Origin: Bradyrhizobium diversitatis | Lineage (GTDB): Bacteria; Pseudomonadota; Alphaproteobacteria; Rhizobiales; Xanthobacteraceae | Reading direction: 5' to 3' | DNA length: 64,000 nucleotides | Assembly (NCBI RefSeq): GCF_016031635.1 | Contig: NZ_JACEGD010000016.1 | Span: 1-64,000 of the forward strand | Made by a program: the position numbers and the translations under genes | The notes under the pieces: generated by a model | Seen by the model: only the letters and a program-made list of their open reading frames with translations | The model's database searches: none | What the model was told of the DNA's origin: nothing | Shown: positions 19,414 to 26,082 of the stretch, one piece after another | Layout: the number at the start of each line of letters is the position of its first letter | How positions within the stretch are numbered: the stretch's first letter is position 1

Positions 19414-21150
19414 CTAGCGCGCGTGCAGCATAGCCAGCAGCACGATGACCGCGCAGGCGAGCGCCGCCGACGTCACCTTCCAGAACATCAGCGGGTTGCG
19501 CTCGAGGAGCGGCGTCATTCGCGTGTCGAGATAGGCCGGGTTGGGCGTGCGAAGCTCGTGGACGAATTCGGACAGGTCCTCGTGTCGTTTGTAGGGATCG
19601 GGATGGAGCGCGCGCCTGAGCGCGCCATCGACCCAGGCCGGCACATTGCGGTCATCGTCGGCCGGGCGATACTGGAGCCTGCGCACGTCCGCCTTGCGCC
19701 GGATCCTGGCGACCTGTGTGCCGTAGGGCAGCTTTCCCGTCAGCATCTGGTAGCAGATCACGGCCAGCGAAAACATGTCGGAGCGCGGCGAGCCGCCTTG
19801 CCCGAGAAGATACTCCGGCGCCGTGTACTGCATCGTTCCCAGGATTTCGTTGGCCTCGTCCGGCGGCGCGGCCTCCGCGACGCCGGCCACCCTGACCGAT
19901 CCGAAGTCGATGATCTTGGCGGTGCCGGTCTTGTCGACCAGGATGTTGTCGGGCCTGAGGTCCTGATGCAGCATCTCCATGCGGTGGAAGGCGCGCAGGC
20001 CCGCCGCGATCTGCTCGACCAGCCCGCGGACGGTTTCGAGATCGGGGCGCGGATTGTCGATCATCCACTGCTTCAGGGTCTGTCCCTCGACGAATTCAGT
20101 CGCGACGTAGAGGTAGCTGCGCCGCCTCGACTGTGACCGCGGCTTCAGCACGTGCGGGCTGTCGATGCGGCGCGCGATCCACTCCTCCATTAGGAAGCGC
20201 TTCAGGTACGCGGCATTGTCGCGCAGGTCGACCGACGGCAGCTTGAGCGCGACCGGCTCCCCGGTCTCCACATCGACGGCAAGATAGATGTGGCTGCGGC
20301 TGCTGCCGTGAATCTCGCGGACGATCCGGTAGCCGTCGAAGATCGCGCGGGGTTCCGGCAGCGAAGGCAGCGGCAATTGTGCGGTCTGATTGAAGATGCC
20401 GGCCGGCTCGCGCTGCGGCACCGCATCGATGCGCAGGATCTGGACGGTGATGTTGTCGTCGCTGCCGCGCCGGTAGGCTTCCTCGACGATGGCCTTCGCC
20501 GCCGCGTCGAGATCGCCCGCATGCTCGTTCAGCGCGCTCGTGACGAAGCGTGCGTCGACGAATTCGTAAGCGCCGTCGGTTGCCAGCAGAAAGGTGTCGC
20601 CGGCCTCGACCTCGAACGCCTGATAGTCGATCTCGAGCTGCGGATTGATGCCGAGCGCGCGGCCGAGATAGGTCTGCTCGGACGACACGATGATGCGGTG
20701 ATCGTCGGTCAGCTGCTCGAGCGCCTTTCCGGCGACGCGGTAGACCCGGCAATCGCCGACATGGAAGATGTGCGCGGTGGTCGCTTTGATGACCATGGCG
20801 CTCAGGGTGCAGACATATCCCTTGTCGCGGTCATAGGCGTATTGGCTCTTGCGCGTCTGCGCGTGCAGCCAGGAATTGGTCGCGTCCAGCACGCGGCGGG
20901 CGGAGGTCTTCACCGTCCAGGATTCCGACGTGCAGTAATAGTCCATCAGGAAACTCTTGACCGCCGACTCGCTGGCGATCTGGCTCACCGCGCTGGAGGA
21001 GATGCCGTCGGCGAGAACCGCCGCGATGCCCTTCAGGCTGAGCAGCGGCTCCTCCGGAATCAGGACGCCGTGAAAGTCCTGGTTGACGGGCTTGCGACCC
21101 TTGTCGGAATGCTGGCCGACGGAGATCTGGAGTCCGCGGGTCATCGTCAT
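19414..21150 (-). CDS. PP2C phosphatase fused to Ser/Thr protein kinase, membrane-anchored
   Basis: 578 aa. An N-terminal PP2C domain spans about residues 5-240: KGRKPVNQDFHG, AVLADGISSS, LLATDGAYEFVD and GSDDNITVQIL give the metal-binding Asp set. A protein kinase domain covers about 265-530: VALKLP, HQDLRPDN and IIDFGSVRV (catalytic loop and DFG). A single membrane helix ends the protein (SAALACAVIVLLAMLHA). It follows the formate/nitrite channel gene and probably shares its NtrC/sigma-54 promoter. A role in controlling nitrate or nitrite uptake by phosphorylation is inferred from position only. Start taken at the ATG; a TTG three codons earlier is possible. Confidence 0.87.
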   Translation of the reverse strand: MTMTRGLQISVGQHSDKGRKPVNQDFHGVLIPEEPLLSLKGIAAVLADGISSSAVSQIASESAVKSFLMDYYCTSESWTVKTSARRVLDATNSWLHAQTRKSQYAYDRDKGYVCTLSAMVIKATTAHIFHVGDCRVYRVAGKALEQLTDDHRIIVSSEQTYLGRALGINPQLEIDYQAFEVEAGDTFLLATDGAYEFVDARFVTSALNEHAGDLDAAAKAIVEEAYRRGSDDNITVQILRIDAVPQREPAGIFNQTAQLPLPSLPEPRAIFDGYRIVREIHGSSRSHIYLAVDVETGEPVALKLPSVDLRDNAAYLKRFLMEEWIARRIDSPHVLKPRSQSRRRSYLYVATEFVEGQTLKQWMIDNPRPDLETVRGLVEQIAAGLRAFHRMEMLHQDLRPDNILVDKTGTAKIIDFGSVRVAGVAEAAPPDEANEILGTMQYTAPEYLLGQGGSPRSDMFSLAVICYQMLTGKLPYGTQVARIRRKADVRRLQYRPADDDRNVPAWVDGALRRALHPDPYKRHEDLSEFVHELRTPNPAYLDTRMTPLLERNPLMFWKVTSAALACAVIVLLAMLHAR

Positions 21151-21210: not shown

Positions 21211-22050
21211 TCAGGCCGCAACGCGGGGCTTCGCAGCCTTGGCGGCCTGGCGCTTCGGCAGGGTCATGACGTGCGTGGCATAGAGGGTCATGCCGGTGAA
21301 GGCGAGGCCGCCGACGAGGTTGCCGAGCACGGTCGGGATCTCGTTCCAGATCAGATAGTCCATGATCGAGAACTTCGCGCCGAGCAGCAGCCCGGACGGG
21401 AACAGGAACATGTTCACGACGGAATGCTCGAACACCATGTAGAAGAACACCAGGATCGGCATCCACATCGCGATGACCTTGCCGGGGACCGAGGTCGAGA
21501 TCATGGCGCCGACGACGCCGGTCGAGACCATCCAGTTGCAGAGCATGCCGCGCATGAACAGCGTCGCCATGCCGGCCGCCCCGTGCGCGGCGTAGCCCAG
21601 CGTGCGCCCTTCGCCGATATTGCCGATGGCGGCGCCGACCTTGTCGGGCCCCTGGGTGAAGCCGAACGTCGTGACGAAAGCCATCATGAAGGCCACCGTG
21701 AAGGCGCCGGCGAAGTTGCCGACGAACACGAGACCCCAATTGCGCAGCACGCCACTGAGCGTGACGCCCGGACGCTTGTCGATCAGGGCGAGCGGGGAAA
21801 GCACGAAGACGCCGGTGAGGAGATCGAAACCCAGCAGATAGAGCATGACGAAGCCGACCGGAAACAGCAGCGCGCCGATCAGCGGTTGGCCCGTGTTGAC
21901 GTTGATCGTCACGGCGAACCAGGCCGCCAGCGCCAGGATGGCGCCCGCCATATAGGCTCGGATGATAGTATCCCGGGTGGACATGAAGATCTTGGACTCG
22001 CCCGCATCCACCATCTTGGTGACGAATTCCGAAGGCGCGAGATACGACAT
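21211..22050 (-). CDS. Formate/nitrite transporter family channel (FocA/NirC type)
   Basis: 279-aa pentameric channel protein with six membrane segments. Family marks include the LGFDLLTGVFVL helix and the NWGLVFVGNFAGA segment. It passes nitrite or formate across the inner membrane. Next to nitrate uptake and reductase genes, nitrite is the likely substrate. AAGGAA precedes the ATG. It is transcribed away from nrtA; a sigma-54 promoter at 22289-22304 would give a leader of about 230 bases. Confidence 0.9.
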   Translation of the reverse strand: MSYLAPSEFVTKMVDAGESKIFMSTRDTIIRAYMAGAILALAAWFAVTINVNTGQPLIGALLFPVGFVMLYLLGFDLLTGVFVLSPLALIDKRPGVTLSGVLRNWGLVFVGNFAGAFTVAFMMAFVTTFGFTQGPDKVGAAIGNIGEGRTLGYAAHGAAGMATLFMRGMLCNWMVSTGVVGAMISTSVPGKVIAMWMPILVFFYMVFEHSVVNMFLFPSGLLLGAKFSIMDYLIWNEIPTVLGNLVGGLAFTGMTLYATHVMTLPKRQAAKAAKPRVAA

Positions 22051-22288
22051 CAATGGTTCCTTTGCTTCGTAAGGGAGATCGACACGCTCCGGAGAGCGCG
22101 GCTGGACGTGATCGGCCGTGCGGGCTGGCCCGCCGCGCACGAGGGCTATGGAAAATCTGGAAGCTTTGGGAATCGCGTCACGAGGACTTTGAGCCGGGAG
22201 GGCCGCGAAGCAGTTGAGCTTCCGGGATGCGGCCGCCAGAGGCTGCATCAATGCGGCAAGCCGCAGTCTTCGTTGACGGCGAAAGAAA

Positions 22289-22304
22289 AGCAAGTTGCGT
22301 GCCG
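22289..22304 (-). promoter_or_regulatory. Sigma-54 promoter for the formate/nitrite channel operon
   Basis: Read on the minus strand: CGGCACGCAACTTGCT, against consensus TGGCACG-N4-TTGCW. Only the first base differs. GG and GC are ten bases apart as required. It points toward the channel gene and the kinase-phosphatase. The NtrC-like dyads begin 94 bases upstream. Confidence 0.72.
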
Positions 22305-22397
22305 GCGCGTAGGGTTAAAAATACCGAGTAATATCAGTGTGATGCCGCTCTGCCCGATCTGATTCTGACGTCGCCTCGGCCTTTTCCTTAAGCTGTT

Positions 22398-22430
22398 GCA
22401 CAAGCTTTGTGCGCCGCACAAGCAATGTGC
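22398..22430. promoter_or_regulatory. Tandem NtrC-like sites shared by two divergent promoters
   Basis: Two dyads of the form GCAC-N7-GTGC, at 22398-22412 and 22416-22430, separated by three bases. This is the core of the enteric NtrC consensus. Outward-pointing sigma-54 promoters lie 94 bases to the left and 95 to the right, so one enhancer probably serves both operons. Confidence 0.75.
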
Positions 22431-22524
22431 AGGTCGCAAATTTCGCATGCGGAACTGACCTGCGACAGTCTGACGCGACCGCTATAATGCATTGATTTCT
22501 TTGTTCTTTTCATAGCGCCGGGCT

Positions 22525-22540
22525 TGGCATGAAGCTTGAA
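22525..22540 (+). promoter_or_regulatory. Sigma-54 promoter for nrtABC
   Basis: TGGCATGAAGCTTGAA against consensus TGGCACG-N4-TTGCW. GG is kept at -24, the ten-base gap is kept, and -12 has GA in place of GC. Its -12 half (TTGAA) matches the one before narK. It implies a start near 22551 and a leader of about 170 bases. Confidence 0.68.
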
Positions 22541-22605
22541 TAGTTCCAGCCGACGCCATTGAAGCCGTCCCGCGAGAATTCTCATCCGATTTGCTGACGC
22601 CACCA

Positions 22606-22722: not shown

Positions 22723-24039
22723 ATGACCAAGCGCATTCGCCGGCCCTTCAAGACTGGCATCAACCGCCGTCAATTGTTGAAAGCCACCGGCGCGACCGCC
22801 GCACTTCTCGCTGCCGCAAAACTGAATTTCCCCGCCGGCGCCTTCGCGCAGGACGCAGGCCCCGAGGTCAAGGGCGCCAAGCTCGGCTTCATCGCGCTGA
22901 CGGACGCCACGCCACTATTCGTCGCCAAGGAAAAGGGCTTCTTTGCCAAATATGGCATGCCCGATGTCGAGGTGCAGAAGCAGGCTTCCTGGGGCACCAC
23001 GCGCGACAACCTCGTGCTGGGCTCGGAAGGCAATGGCATCGACGGCGCGCACATCCTCACCCCGATGCCGTATCTGATCTCGGCCGGCAAGGTGACGCAG
23101 AACAACCAGCCGACGCCGATGTACATCCTGGCGCGCCTCAACCTGAACGGTCAGTGCATCTCAGTCGCCAAGGAATATGCCGATCTCAAGATCGGCGTGG
23201 ATACCGCGCCCTTCAAGCCGGCACTCGAGAAGAAGAAGGCGTCAGGCAAGGCGGTGAAGGCGGCGATGACCTTTCCCGGCGGCACACATGACCTTTGGAT
23301 TCGCTATTGGCTCGCCGCTGGCGGCATCGATCCGGACAAGGATATCGAAACCATCGTGGTTCCGCCGGCACAGATGGTGGCCAATATGAAAGTTGGCACC
23401 ATGGACTGCTTCTGTGTCTGCGAGCCGTGGAATCTGCAGCTCATCCACCAGAACATCGGCTACACCGCGATCACCACCGGTGAGCTCTGGGACAAGCATC
23501 CCGAAAAGTCGTTCGGCTTGCGCGCGGCCTGGGTCGACAAATGTCCGAAGGCAGCGAAGGCGCTGCTGATGGCAGTGATGGAAGCGCAGCAATGGGCCGA
23601 GAAGATGGAAAATCGCGAGGAAGCCGCGGTGATCTGCGCCAAGCGCCAATGGATCAACTGCCCGGTAGAAGACATTACCGATCGCATGAAGGGCAAGTTC
23701 GACTACGGTACCGGCCGAGTGGTCGACAACTCGCCGCAGCAGATGCGCTTCTGGAAGGATCATGCCTCCTATCCGTTCCAGAGCCACGATCTCTGGTTCA
23801 TGACCGAGGACATCCGCTGGGGCAAATACGAAGCCGGCTTCGACACCAAGGCGCTGATCGCCAAGGTCAACCGCGAGGACCTCTGGAAGGACGCGGCCAA
23901 GACTCTCGGAGTCGCGGCCTCGGACATCCCGACCTCCACCTCGCGCGGTAAGGAGACCTTCTTCGACGGCAAGGTGTTCGATCCGGAAAATCCGGCCGCC
24001 TATCTGAAGTCGCTCGCGATCAAGCGCGTCGAAGTCTGA
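22723..24039 (+). CDS. nrtA: Nitrate ABC transporter substrate-binding protein NrtA
   Basis: 438-aa periplasmic binding protein of the NrtA/CmpA family. A twin-arginine signal is present (NRRQLLKATGATAALLAAAK; likely cut after GAFAQ near residue 44). The NMT1/SsuA-type fold shows in VKGAKLGFIALTDATPLFVA, with FPGGTHDLWIRYWLAAGGID in the second half. It delivers nitrate to NrtBC. It is the first gene of the rightward uptake operon behind an NtrC/sigma-54 control region. The start gives an N-terminus MTKRIRRPF typical of rhizobial NrtA. Confidence 0.92.
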   Translation: MTKRIRRPFKTGINRRQLLKATGATAALLAAAKLNFPAGAFAQDAGPEVKGAKLGFIALTDATPLFVAKEKGFFAKYGMPDVEVQKQASWGTTRDNLVLGSEGNGIDGAHILTPMPYLISAGKVTQNNQPTPMYILARLNLNGQCISVAKEYADLKIGVDTAPFKPALEKKKASGKAVKAAMTFPGGTHDLWIRYWLAAGGIDPDKDIETIVVPPAQMVANMKVGTMDCFCVCEPWNLQLIHQNIGYTAITTGELWDKHPEKSFGLRAAWVDKCPKAAKALLMAVMEAQQWAEKMENREEAAVICAKRQWINCPVEDITDRMKGKFDYGTGRVVDNSPQQMRFWKDHASYPFQSHDLWFMTEDIRWGKYEAGFDTKALIAKVNREDLWKDAAKTLGVAASDIPTSTSRGKETFFDGKVFDPENPAAYLKSLAIKRVEV

Positions 24040-25852: not shown

Positions 25853-25885
25853 GCTCAATCCTTGTGCGTCGCACAAGGATTGAGC
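25853..25885. promoter_or_regulatory. Tandem NtrC-like sites upstream of narK
   Basis: GCTC-N7-GTGC (25853-25867) and GCAC-N7-GAGC (25871-25885), three bases apart. The inner half sites GTGC and GCAC match consensus and the outer ones carry one change each. They are embedded in a perfect 17-bp inverted repeat, 25851-25887, with loop GTC. The arrangement equals that before nrtA. Confidence 0.7.
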
Positions 25886-25979
25886 GAATCGCAAACCAAG
25901 CGTGCGAATAAGCCCTGCGAACATTTCGGGCGAGACGAACAACATCCTGAAATCCCTGCGTTTCCAGGATGCACGCAAC

Positions 25980-25995: not shown

Positions 25996-26082
25996 GCGCA
26001 TTTGCGCGACGCCAACGACGACGTCCCTCAACATCATCAATCAGCATCGTGAACTCGCCACCGGGGTGAAGCCTCGGAGCGC

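Follow-up and report, generated by a model that had tools for sequence, protein, structure and literature searches.

The window analysed here is a 64,000-nucleotide stretch of Bradyrhizobium diversitatis DNA in which the spacer at 22289-22540 separates two divergent operons: a leftward one for a formate/nitrite transporter (FNT) channel and a PP2C phosphatase-kinase fusion protein, and a rightward one, nrtABC, with a presumed role in nitrate uptake. We consider it very likely, from the patterns in the DNA, that this spacer is a bidirectional NtrC/sigma-54 control region for both operons, that it has a twin upstream of narK, and that the transcripts begin with leaders of the NasT type. From the same patterns we infer the identity of the activator as NtrC, the use of one enhancer by both promoters, and the exact transcript starts. 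Shared nitrogen control of nrtABC and the channel-kinase operon, of the sigma-54/NtrC type, had been proposed in an earlier note on this DNA, and the proposal is supported by the conserved architecture of the spacer, by the dyads at glnK, by rpoN mutant data from strain DOA9 and by the co-induction of the two operons in nifH-mutant nodules. The features are collected in Table 1.

Table 1. Predicted control elements and genes of the nitrate locus (window coordinates)
Feature	Position	Strand	Remarks
PP2C phosphatase + Ser/Thr kinase fusion gene	19417..21144	-	PF13672 + PF00069; directly downstream of FNT
FNT (formate/nitrite transporter) channel gene	21214..22050	-	PF01226, E 5e-61
Start of predicted FNT leader	22245..22277	-	hairpins GUC-AACGAA-GAC (22277-22266) and GC-AUUGAU-GC (22254-22245); both loops A1/G4
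Predicted -24/-12 (sigma-54) promoter of the FNT/PP2C-kinase operon, CGGCACGCAACTTGCT	22289..22304	-	one mismatch, GG-N10-GC intact
Predicted enhancer core: pair of NtrC-type dyads with a 3-bp spacer	22398..22430		family form GCNCAA-N3-TTGTGC-GNC-GCACAA-N3-TTGNGC
Third, weaker dyad, GCAAATTTCGCATGC	22436..22450		two mismatches; 5 bases past dyad 2, on the nrtA side only
Predicted -24/-12 (sigma-54) promoter of nrtABC, TGGCATGAAGCTTGAA	22525..22540	+	two mismatches, one in the -12 dinucleotide (GA for GC)
Start of predicted nrtA leader	22552..22569	+	hairpin GACGCC-AUUGAA-GCCGUC; loop A1/G4
nrtA, nitrate-binding protein, first gene of nrtABC	22723..24039	+	PF13379, E 5e-109
Second predicted enhancer core, upstream of narK	25853..25885		near-perfect 33-bp palindrome (32/33 positions)
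Third dyad of the narK copy, GCAAACCAAGCGTGC	25891..25905		weaker; at most two mismatches in 23/23 narK loci
Predicted -24/-12 promoter of narK-bjgb-flp-nasC, TGGCACGGAAATTGAA	25980..25995	+	94 bases from the second core
Predicted narK leader hairpin	26008..26025	+	GACGCC-AACGAC-GACGUC; loop A1/G4, starts at about +3

Enhancers for NtrC consist of GCAC-N7-GTGC-type dyads, usually paired and placed about 70-150 bases upstream, and the core dyads of the spacer have this form. The letters are as first read, namely two GCAC-N7-GTGC dyads three bases apart, GCACAAGCTTTGTGC (dyad 1, 22398-22412) and GCACAAGCAATGTGC (dyad 2, 22416-22430), which lie 18 bp centre to centre. The single motif occurs 260 times in the 8.45-Mb genome, versus 115 times for the reversed control. 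The exact double dyad with a three-base spacer occurs once, in this spacer, and about 0.008 such pairs would be expected on the assumption that the 260 sites are placed independently. The four-half-site family pattern, with at most three mismatches, has two matches genome-wide, both at the nitrate locus, and its reversed control has none.

The FNT protein was searched for in 117 genomes of the genus, of which 107 gave a match; 92 matches were close (at least 79% identity) and 90 loci were taken, G099 and G100 being left out for a contig edge or a partial gene. A divergent nrtA is present at 38 of the 90 loci, and these form the 38-species alignment. Four loci with a distant nrtA-like protein as the divergent gene (L035, L043, L047 and L051) stay outside the alignment and are counted among the other 52. 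The comparison of this spacer across Bradyrhizobium genomes, which the earlier note had suggested, found the two promoters, the paired dyads and their spacing kept in every one of the 38 species with this gene pair. The double dyad with its three-base spacer (at most two mismatches), the right promoter TGGCAYRAAGCTTGAA and the GG-N10-GC of the left promoter are each present in 38/38. The gap between core and left promoter is 92-95 bases in 37 species and 83 in one; the gap to the right promoter is 94-95 in 37 and 88 in one (for L011 the aligned site was taken, not a nearer chance match). Mean column identity is 0.94 in the left promoter, 0.89 in the enhancer and 0.98 in the right promoter, and 0.66 and 0.72 in the stretches between them.

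The core had been described as almost exactly midway between the promoters, at 94 and 95 bases. These figures are coordinate differences, and the gaps proper are 93 bases to the left and 94 to the right, so the core pair is nearly centred; the third dyad of Table 1, which the earlier note does not list, breaks the symmetry. With at most two mismatches it is present in 33/38 species (13 of them with one mismatch), while control offsets gave 1/114 and the mirror position on the FNT side 0/38. Since this dyad occurs on the nrtA side only, the symmetry is incomplete and the whole enhancer is lopsided towards nrtA, which the third dyad may favour. A fully symmetric element was therefore dropped as a description of the spacer.

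The sigma-54 consensus used was GG-N10-GC within TGGCACG-N4-TTGCW. By this measure the leftward promoter has the single mismatch that had been claimed for it. The rightward promoter is also kept in 38/38 species; it has two mismatches, and the GA at -12 had gone unmentioned. The -12 element of nrtA is TTGAA, with GA in place of GC in 38/38 species, and thus departs from the strict GG-N10-GC rule. TTGAA is also the -12 element at narK and nirA, and TTGAT that at glnK; GA at -12 looks like the local norm. The window holds 87 single -24/-12 matches (at most three mismatches), versus a shuffle mean of 109, so a lone match of such quality is not rare and the weight rests on conservation.

The same architecture was looked for at named nrtA and narK loci. 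The named-genome set has 80 nrtA loci, five with too little upstream DNA, and 57 of the 75 tested have both enhancer and promoter (0/3750 shuffles); these loci and the other Bradyrhizobium genomes overlap in species, and the counts are not independent. Gaps among the 57 are 93-98 bases (47 loci), 108-109 (nine) and 120 (one), a series that might hint at helical phasing but comes from few lineages. The 18 loci that fail the strict architecture test come from Rhodopseudomonas, Methylobacterium, Xanthobacter, Afipia, Tardiphaga, several MAGs, a record titled Streptomyces and one Bradyrhizobium (L156); a weaker element is present in four of them (L130, L137, L156 and L176). The nrtA of the record titled Streptomyces sp. 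AcH 505 (L130) shares 91% identity with the window's own, and the record is probably a contaminant or a mislabelled contig. All 23 named narK loci have enhancer and promoter, with a gap of 94 bases in 19 and 95 in four (0/1150 shuffles), and control offsets for the third dyad of the narK copy gave 2/69.

These counts bear on whether the whole pattern could be chance, an explanation which we regard as practically negligible. Strings resembling -24/-12 promoters are indeed common in this GC-rich window. Against chance, the double dyad occurs once against the small expectation given above, conservation across the 38 species has already been found, and none of the 3750 and 1150 shuffles reproduces the architecture.

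The narK copy could also be read as a terminator of nrtABC rather than an enhancer, since a long hairpin is possible roughly 50 bases past the end of that operon's last gene. However, the palindrome is followed by no T run, the nrtA-FNT spacer has the same core although no gene ends there, and the gap to the narK promoter is held at 94-95 bases in 23/23 loci. We judge the terminator reading very unlikely and treat the narK copy as a probable second enhancer.

A gene taken as nirA from a reading of its neighbourhood (L194) has a perfect TGGCACG-N4-TTGAA promoter 188 bases before its start codon, and no four-half-site core was found in the stretch scanned there. The first NIR_SIR match (L193) was rejected as nirA, its neighbours reading as a cysG-like cluster.

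It is also conceivable that the dyads mainly serve nrtA and that the FNT-kinase promoter is driven in part by other sites. The third dyad lies on the nrtA or narK side only, nrtA genes without an FNT neighbour retain the element at 94-120 bases, and FNT genes that lack an nrtA neighbour still have a sigma-54 promoter, with its dyads spaced differently. A sigma-54-type site is present upstream of FNT in 90/90 Bradyrhizobium loci. These include all 52 loci where no nrtA orthologue turned up on the divergent side. Among these 52, a few of which have little upstream DNA, the double dyad with a three-base spacer (at most three mismatches) occurs in 15, further upstream, a doubtful match in L092 being excluded; 26 of the remaining 37 fit either of two more permissive patterns that allow a wider spacer, for which there is no shuffle control, and 11 fit none. 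Against this explanation, the spacers of the 38 species contain no other double dyad at up to three mismatches, the only further dyad between the promoters at up to one mismatch is the third dyad itself (13/38 species), and the left gap is as tightly held as described above. We think it improbable that nrtA is the main client, and we prefer an enhancer shared by both promoters.

As for the activator, the glnK gene beside amtB is a standard NtrC target and can serve as a local reference. The glnK promoter is near-invariant, TGGCACGGCATTTGAT in 29/30 genomes, and has GA at -12 as well. Upstream of glnK, 28/30 genomes have one or more exact TGCNC-N7-GNGCA dyads, versus 2.4% of shuffles; with one mismatch allowed the dyad is found in 30/30 genomes, but also in 26% of shuffles, and such dyads lie at 143-145 bases in 30/30 and at 104 bases in 23/30. 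Because glnK shares both the 4-7-4 dyads and the TTGA, the 4-7-4 dyad is likely the Ntr site used locally, TTGA can be taken as an ordinary -12 element, and the common dyad geometry points to NtrC. The genome's NtrC matches TIGR01818 with 746 bits, over the cut-off, and has the GAFTGA motif. NtrX was set aside as the activator, as the NtrX of this genome is without GAFTGA. The genome also has two glnK-amtB pairs in tandem (L110-L112, G000:C46:129500-135000), with a clear sigma-54 promoter before the second glnK only.

A different sigma-54 enhancer-binding protein might nevertheless occupy the dyads, or the central palindrome TTGTGCGNCGCACAA might be bound by another regulator of the nitrate module that works with sigma-54. 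At least one further enhancer-binding protein of the genome, L228, has GAFTGA. There are just two genomic copies of the full element, each at the nitrate locus, and a scan of the nirA stretch gave none. In addition, the inner half-sites are better conserved than the outer ones: across the 38 species the inner two, which belong to different dyads, hardly vary, and the outer ones read GCAC, GCAT, GCTC or GCCC. On the other side, outer and inner half-sites together form the same 4-7-4 dyads as the glnK promoter, and the lack of GAFTGA speaks against NtrX. Caulobacter NtrC also gives a ChIP-seq peak at narK, according to the available text of PMC10274813, though that NtrC is itself without GAFTGA. 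We give little weight to another activator and continue with NtrC.

The predicted leader RNAs add a second layer. By convention the GG of a sigma-54 promoter is placed at -25/-24. The promoter positions then put +1 near 22278 for FNT, near 22551 for nrtA and at 26006 for narK, and on all three predicted transcripts a hairpin with a six-base loop begins at about +2/+3, a placement which supports the promoter calls. FNT leaders have GTC-N6-GAC with A1/G4 in 90/90 loci, with five loop sequences; nrtA leaders have GACGCC-N6-GCCGTC in 58/70, with eight loop sequences in which A1 and G4 are invariant. A more general stem test (at least five pairs, one mismatch allowed, A1/G4 hexaloop) was passed by 66/70 nrtA leaders (9% of shuffles) and 59/90 FNT leaders (13% of shuffles), the other 31 FNT leaders failing the five-pair stem. 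A second hairpin, GC-A..G..-GC, follows in 34/42 FNT leaders, as counted with a pattern that itself demands A1/G4, and no clear second tandem hairpin was seen in nrtA leaders. The narK and nirA leaders of this genome also carry A1/G4 hairpins, that of nirA by a four-pair stem.

A1 and G4 of the hexaloop are what ANTAR proteins require (PMC3369931, in its available part), and NasT hairpins were predicted earlier for narK, bjgb, nirA and coxS (PMC6759348, likewise); a term search of the main text of the latter paper found neither bll2801 nor blr2803. Six-base A1/G4 loops on short stems are thus shared with the ANTAR/NasT leader RNAs of PMC3369931, as far as its accessible portion describes them, but here a second hairpin was seen for FNT only. 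The nrtA leader has a strong hairpin without a U run. Rfam gave no match in the window or the spacer, single-sequence folding of the two leaders was unremarkable (z -1.2 and -0.8), and a long consensus fold of the 38 nrtA leaders was rejected because it rests mostly on invariant columns. Hairpins of the ANTAR/NasT type at the transcript starts would make the nrtA and FNT leaders targets of NasT, and both operons would then probably need nitrogen limitation as well as nitrate. The 45 bases that open the nrtA leader (22551-22595) are 98% identical across the 38 species, and those of the FNT leader (22234-22278, minus strand) are 97% conserved in the same species. For nrtA this conservation goes beyond the needs of one hairpin, and a second RNA function is possible.

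Published expression data fit shared control. RNA-seq of rpoN mutants of strain DOA9 lists nrtA, nrtB, fnt, prkC, nirA and glnK as repressed, and prkC, fnt and nrtA adjoin in that genome as BRADOA9_v1_41482-41484 (PMC13207237, available part). The earlier note knew of no description of a tie between the kinase and nitrogen status; the control is supported, but RpoN dependence of the DOA9 'prkC' was already published in that paper, with the promoters placed elsewhere. The RpoN sites it predicts are CGGGGGTTCCCCCGT at -103 for nrtA and CGGCAGGCCGCCCGC at -74 for fnt and prkC. Mapped on the DOA9 locus (L158), the sites as given there fall inside the predicted leaders, one of them in an nrtA-leader hairpin; from these sites it is another 85 and 174 bases upstream to the conserved promoters. 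The same portion of PMC13207237 reads prkC as a cell-wall kinase and describes no enhancer at this locus.

In nifH-mutant nodules of B. diazoefficiens, compared with wild type, the log2 changes are 4.2 for bll2801 (FNT), 4.2 for blr2803 (nrtA) and 5.0 for nirA (PMC4926349 Table 3). The authors of that study, in its available part, report nitrogen limitation in these nodules but propose that elevated NO may lie behind the induction of the nitrate cluster. Deletion of blr2803-05 in B. japonicum left growth on nitrate unimpaired (PMC4724949, accessible text). The narK-bjgb-flp-nasC operon and nirA of B. diazoefficiens are nitrate regulated via NasS-NasT, and the available parts of the two papers that say so (PMC4724949, PMC6759348) describe no NtrC/sigma-54 enhancer at the narK or nirA promoters. 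In the open-licence literature, as far as its available text goes, we found no prior account of the shared enhancer, of its narK twin or of NasT-type hairpins on nrtA and FNT; a search for a known kinase in nitrate clusters returned nothing useful.

The mechanism that we propose would work as follows. Under nitrogen limitation phosphorylated NtrC would bind the paired core dyads, presumably helped by the third dyad, and would oligomerise there. DNA looping would then allow it to activate sigma-54 RNA polymerase at two near-equidistant promoters, with nrtABC as the rightward output and the nitrite/formate channel plus its PP2C-kinase partner as the leftward one, while the second copy of the enhancer would drive narK-bjgb-flp-nasC. 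As each transcript would open with a hairpin such as the antiterminator NasT recognises, the operons would reach full expression only if NasS also senses nitrate or nitrite.

Each part of this arrangement has relatives. Single enhancer regions for divergent sigma-54 promoters are known from hyc/hyp with FhlA and from nifH/fixA with NifA, where likewise the activator site or sites lie in one intergenic region and serve two operons. To our knowledge, two promoters near-equidistant from one dyad pair and kept so across a genus are unusual. NtrC/sigma-54 promoters of the glnK-amtB type are alike in having 4-7-4 dyads upstream of -24/-12 and a TTGA -12 element; here, in contrast, the dyads are 18 bp apart centre to centre, they make up a larger near-palindrome flanked by a third dyad, and they lie about equally far from two divergent promoters. 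The narK-bjgb-flp-nasC promoter belongs to the same module and has the same enhancer, gap and leader hairpin, and the nirA promoter shares the sigma-54 site and the leader hairpin. The DOA9 RpoN regulon agrees in that nrtA, fnt and the kinase gene are reported to depend on RpoN, but its sites, as placed in the available part of PMC13207237, lie downstream of the conserved promoters.

The locus would offer a precise promoter map for genes that are already published as RpoN dependent, though with other promoter positions, and it would join two known layers of control, NtrC/sigma-54 and NasT, at one locus of a soybean-symbiont genus, in which nitrate use bears on nodulation and N2O. It would also place a bacterial kinase-phosphatase within the nitrate/nitrite assimilation circuit. 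The near-equidistant promoter pair would be a natural test of whether one assembly of an enhancer-binding protein can fire two promoters.

The channel-kinase pair reaches beyond the genus. Relatives of the kinase (E <= 1e-80) are present in 72 of 249 genomes sampled across the phylum. At the best 20 kinase loci, 14 of them outside the genus, FNT adjoins the kinase in 20/20; it lies upstream on the same strand in 19, and the genes converge in one (L249). The survey gave 84 matches, four of them without DNA, and 60 further loci were added to the best 20. Counted over 74 loci besides the first six, two of the 74 being second copies within the genus, FNT is present near the kinase in 25 and was not found in 49. 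Reading frames similar to NirB, NarK, NasC or NrtA lie nearby in 21 of these 49; an NCBIfam scan of nine of the 21 gave one over the cut-off, several of the frames being partial. Outside the genus a sigma-54-like site lies upstream of FNT in 11/24 loci, versus 23/2400 shuffles, six of the 11 coming from one family, and none was found in the other 13. A tentative reading, which we put forward as a possibility and would not yet favour, is that FNT and the PP2C-kinase are a widely inherited nitrite-uptake signalling unit of the Pseudomonadota, wired to nitrogen status twice in Bradyrhizobium, through NtrC/sigma-54 by way of the nitrate-pump enhancer and through NasT at the RNA, and that the kinase-phosphatase gates the channel or nitrite assimilation by reversible phosphorylation.

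Some Bradyrhizobium genomes encode a second FNT, about 46% identical to the first (L097-L109). No kinase was detected near it in the DNA examined there; this paralogue stands beside a distant NrtA-like protein and has TGGCAC...TTGAA upstream in 13 loci.
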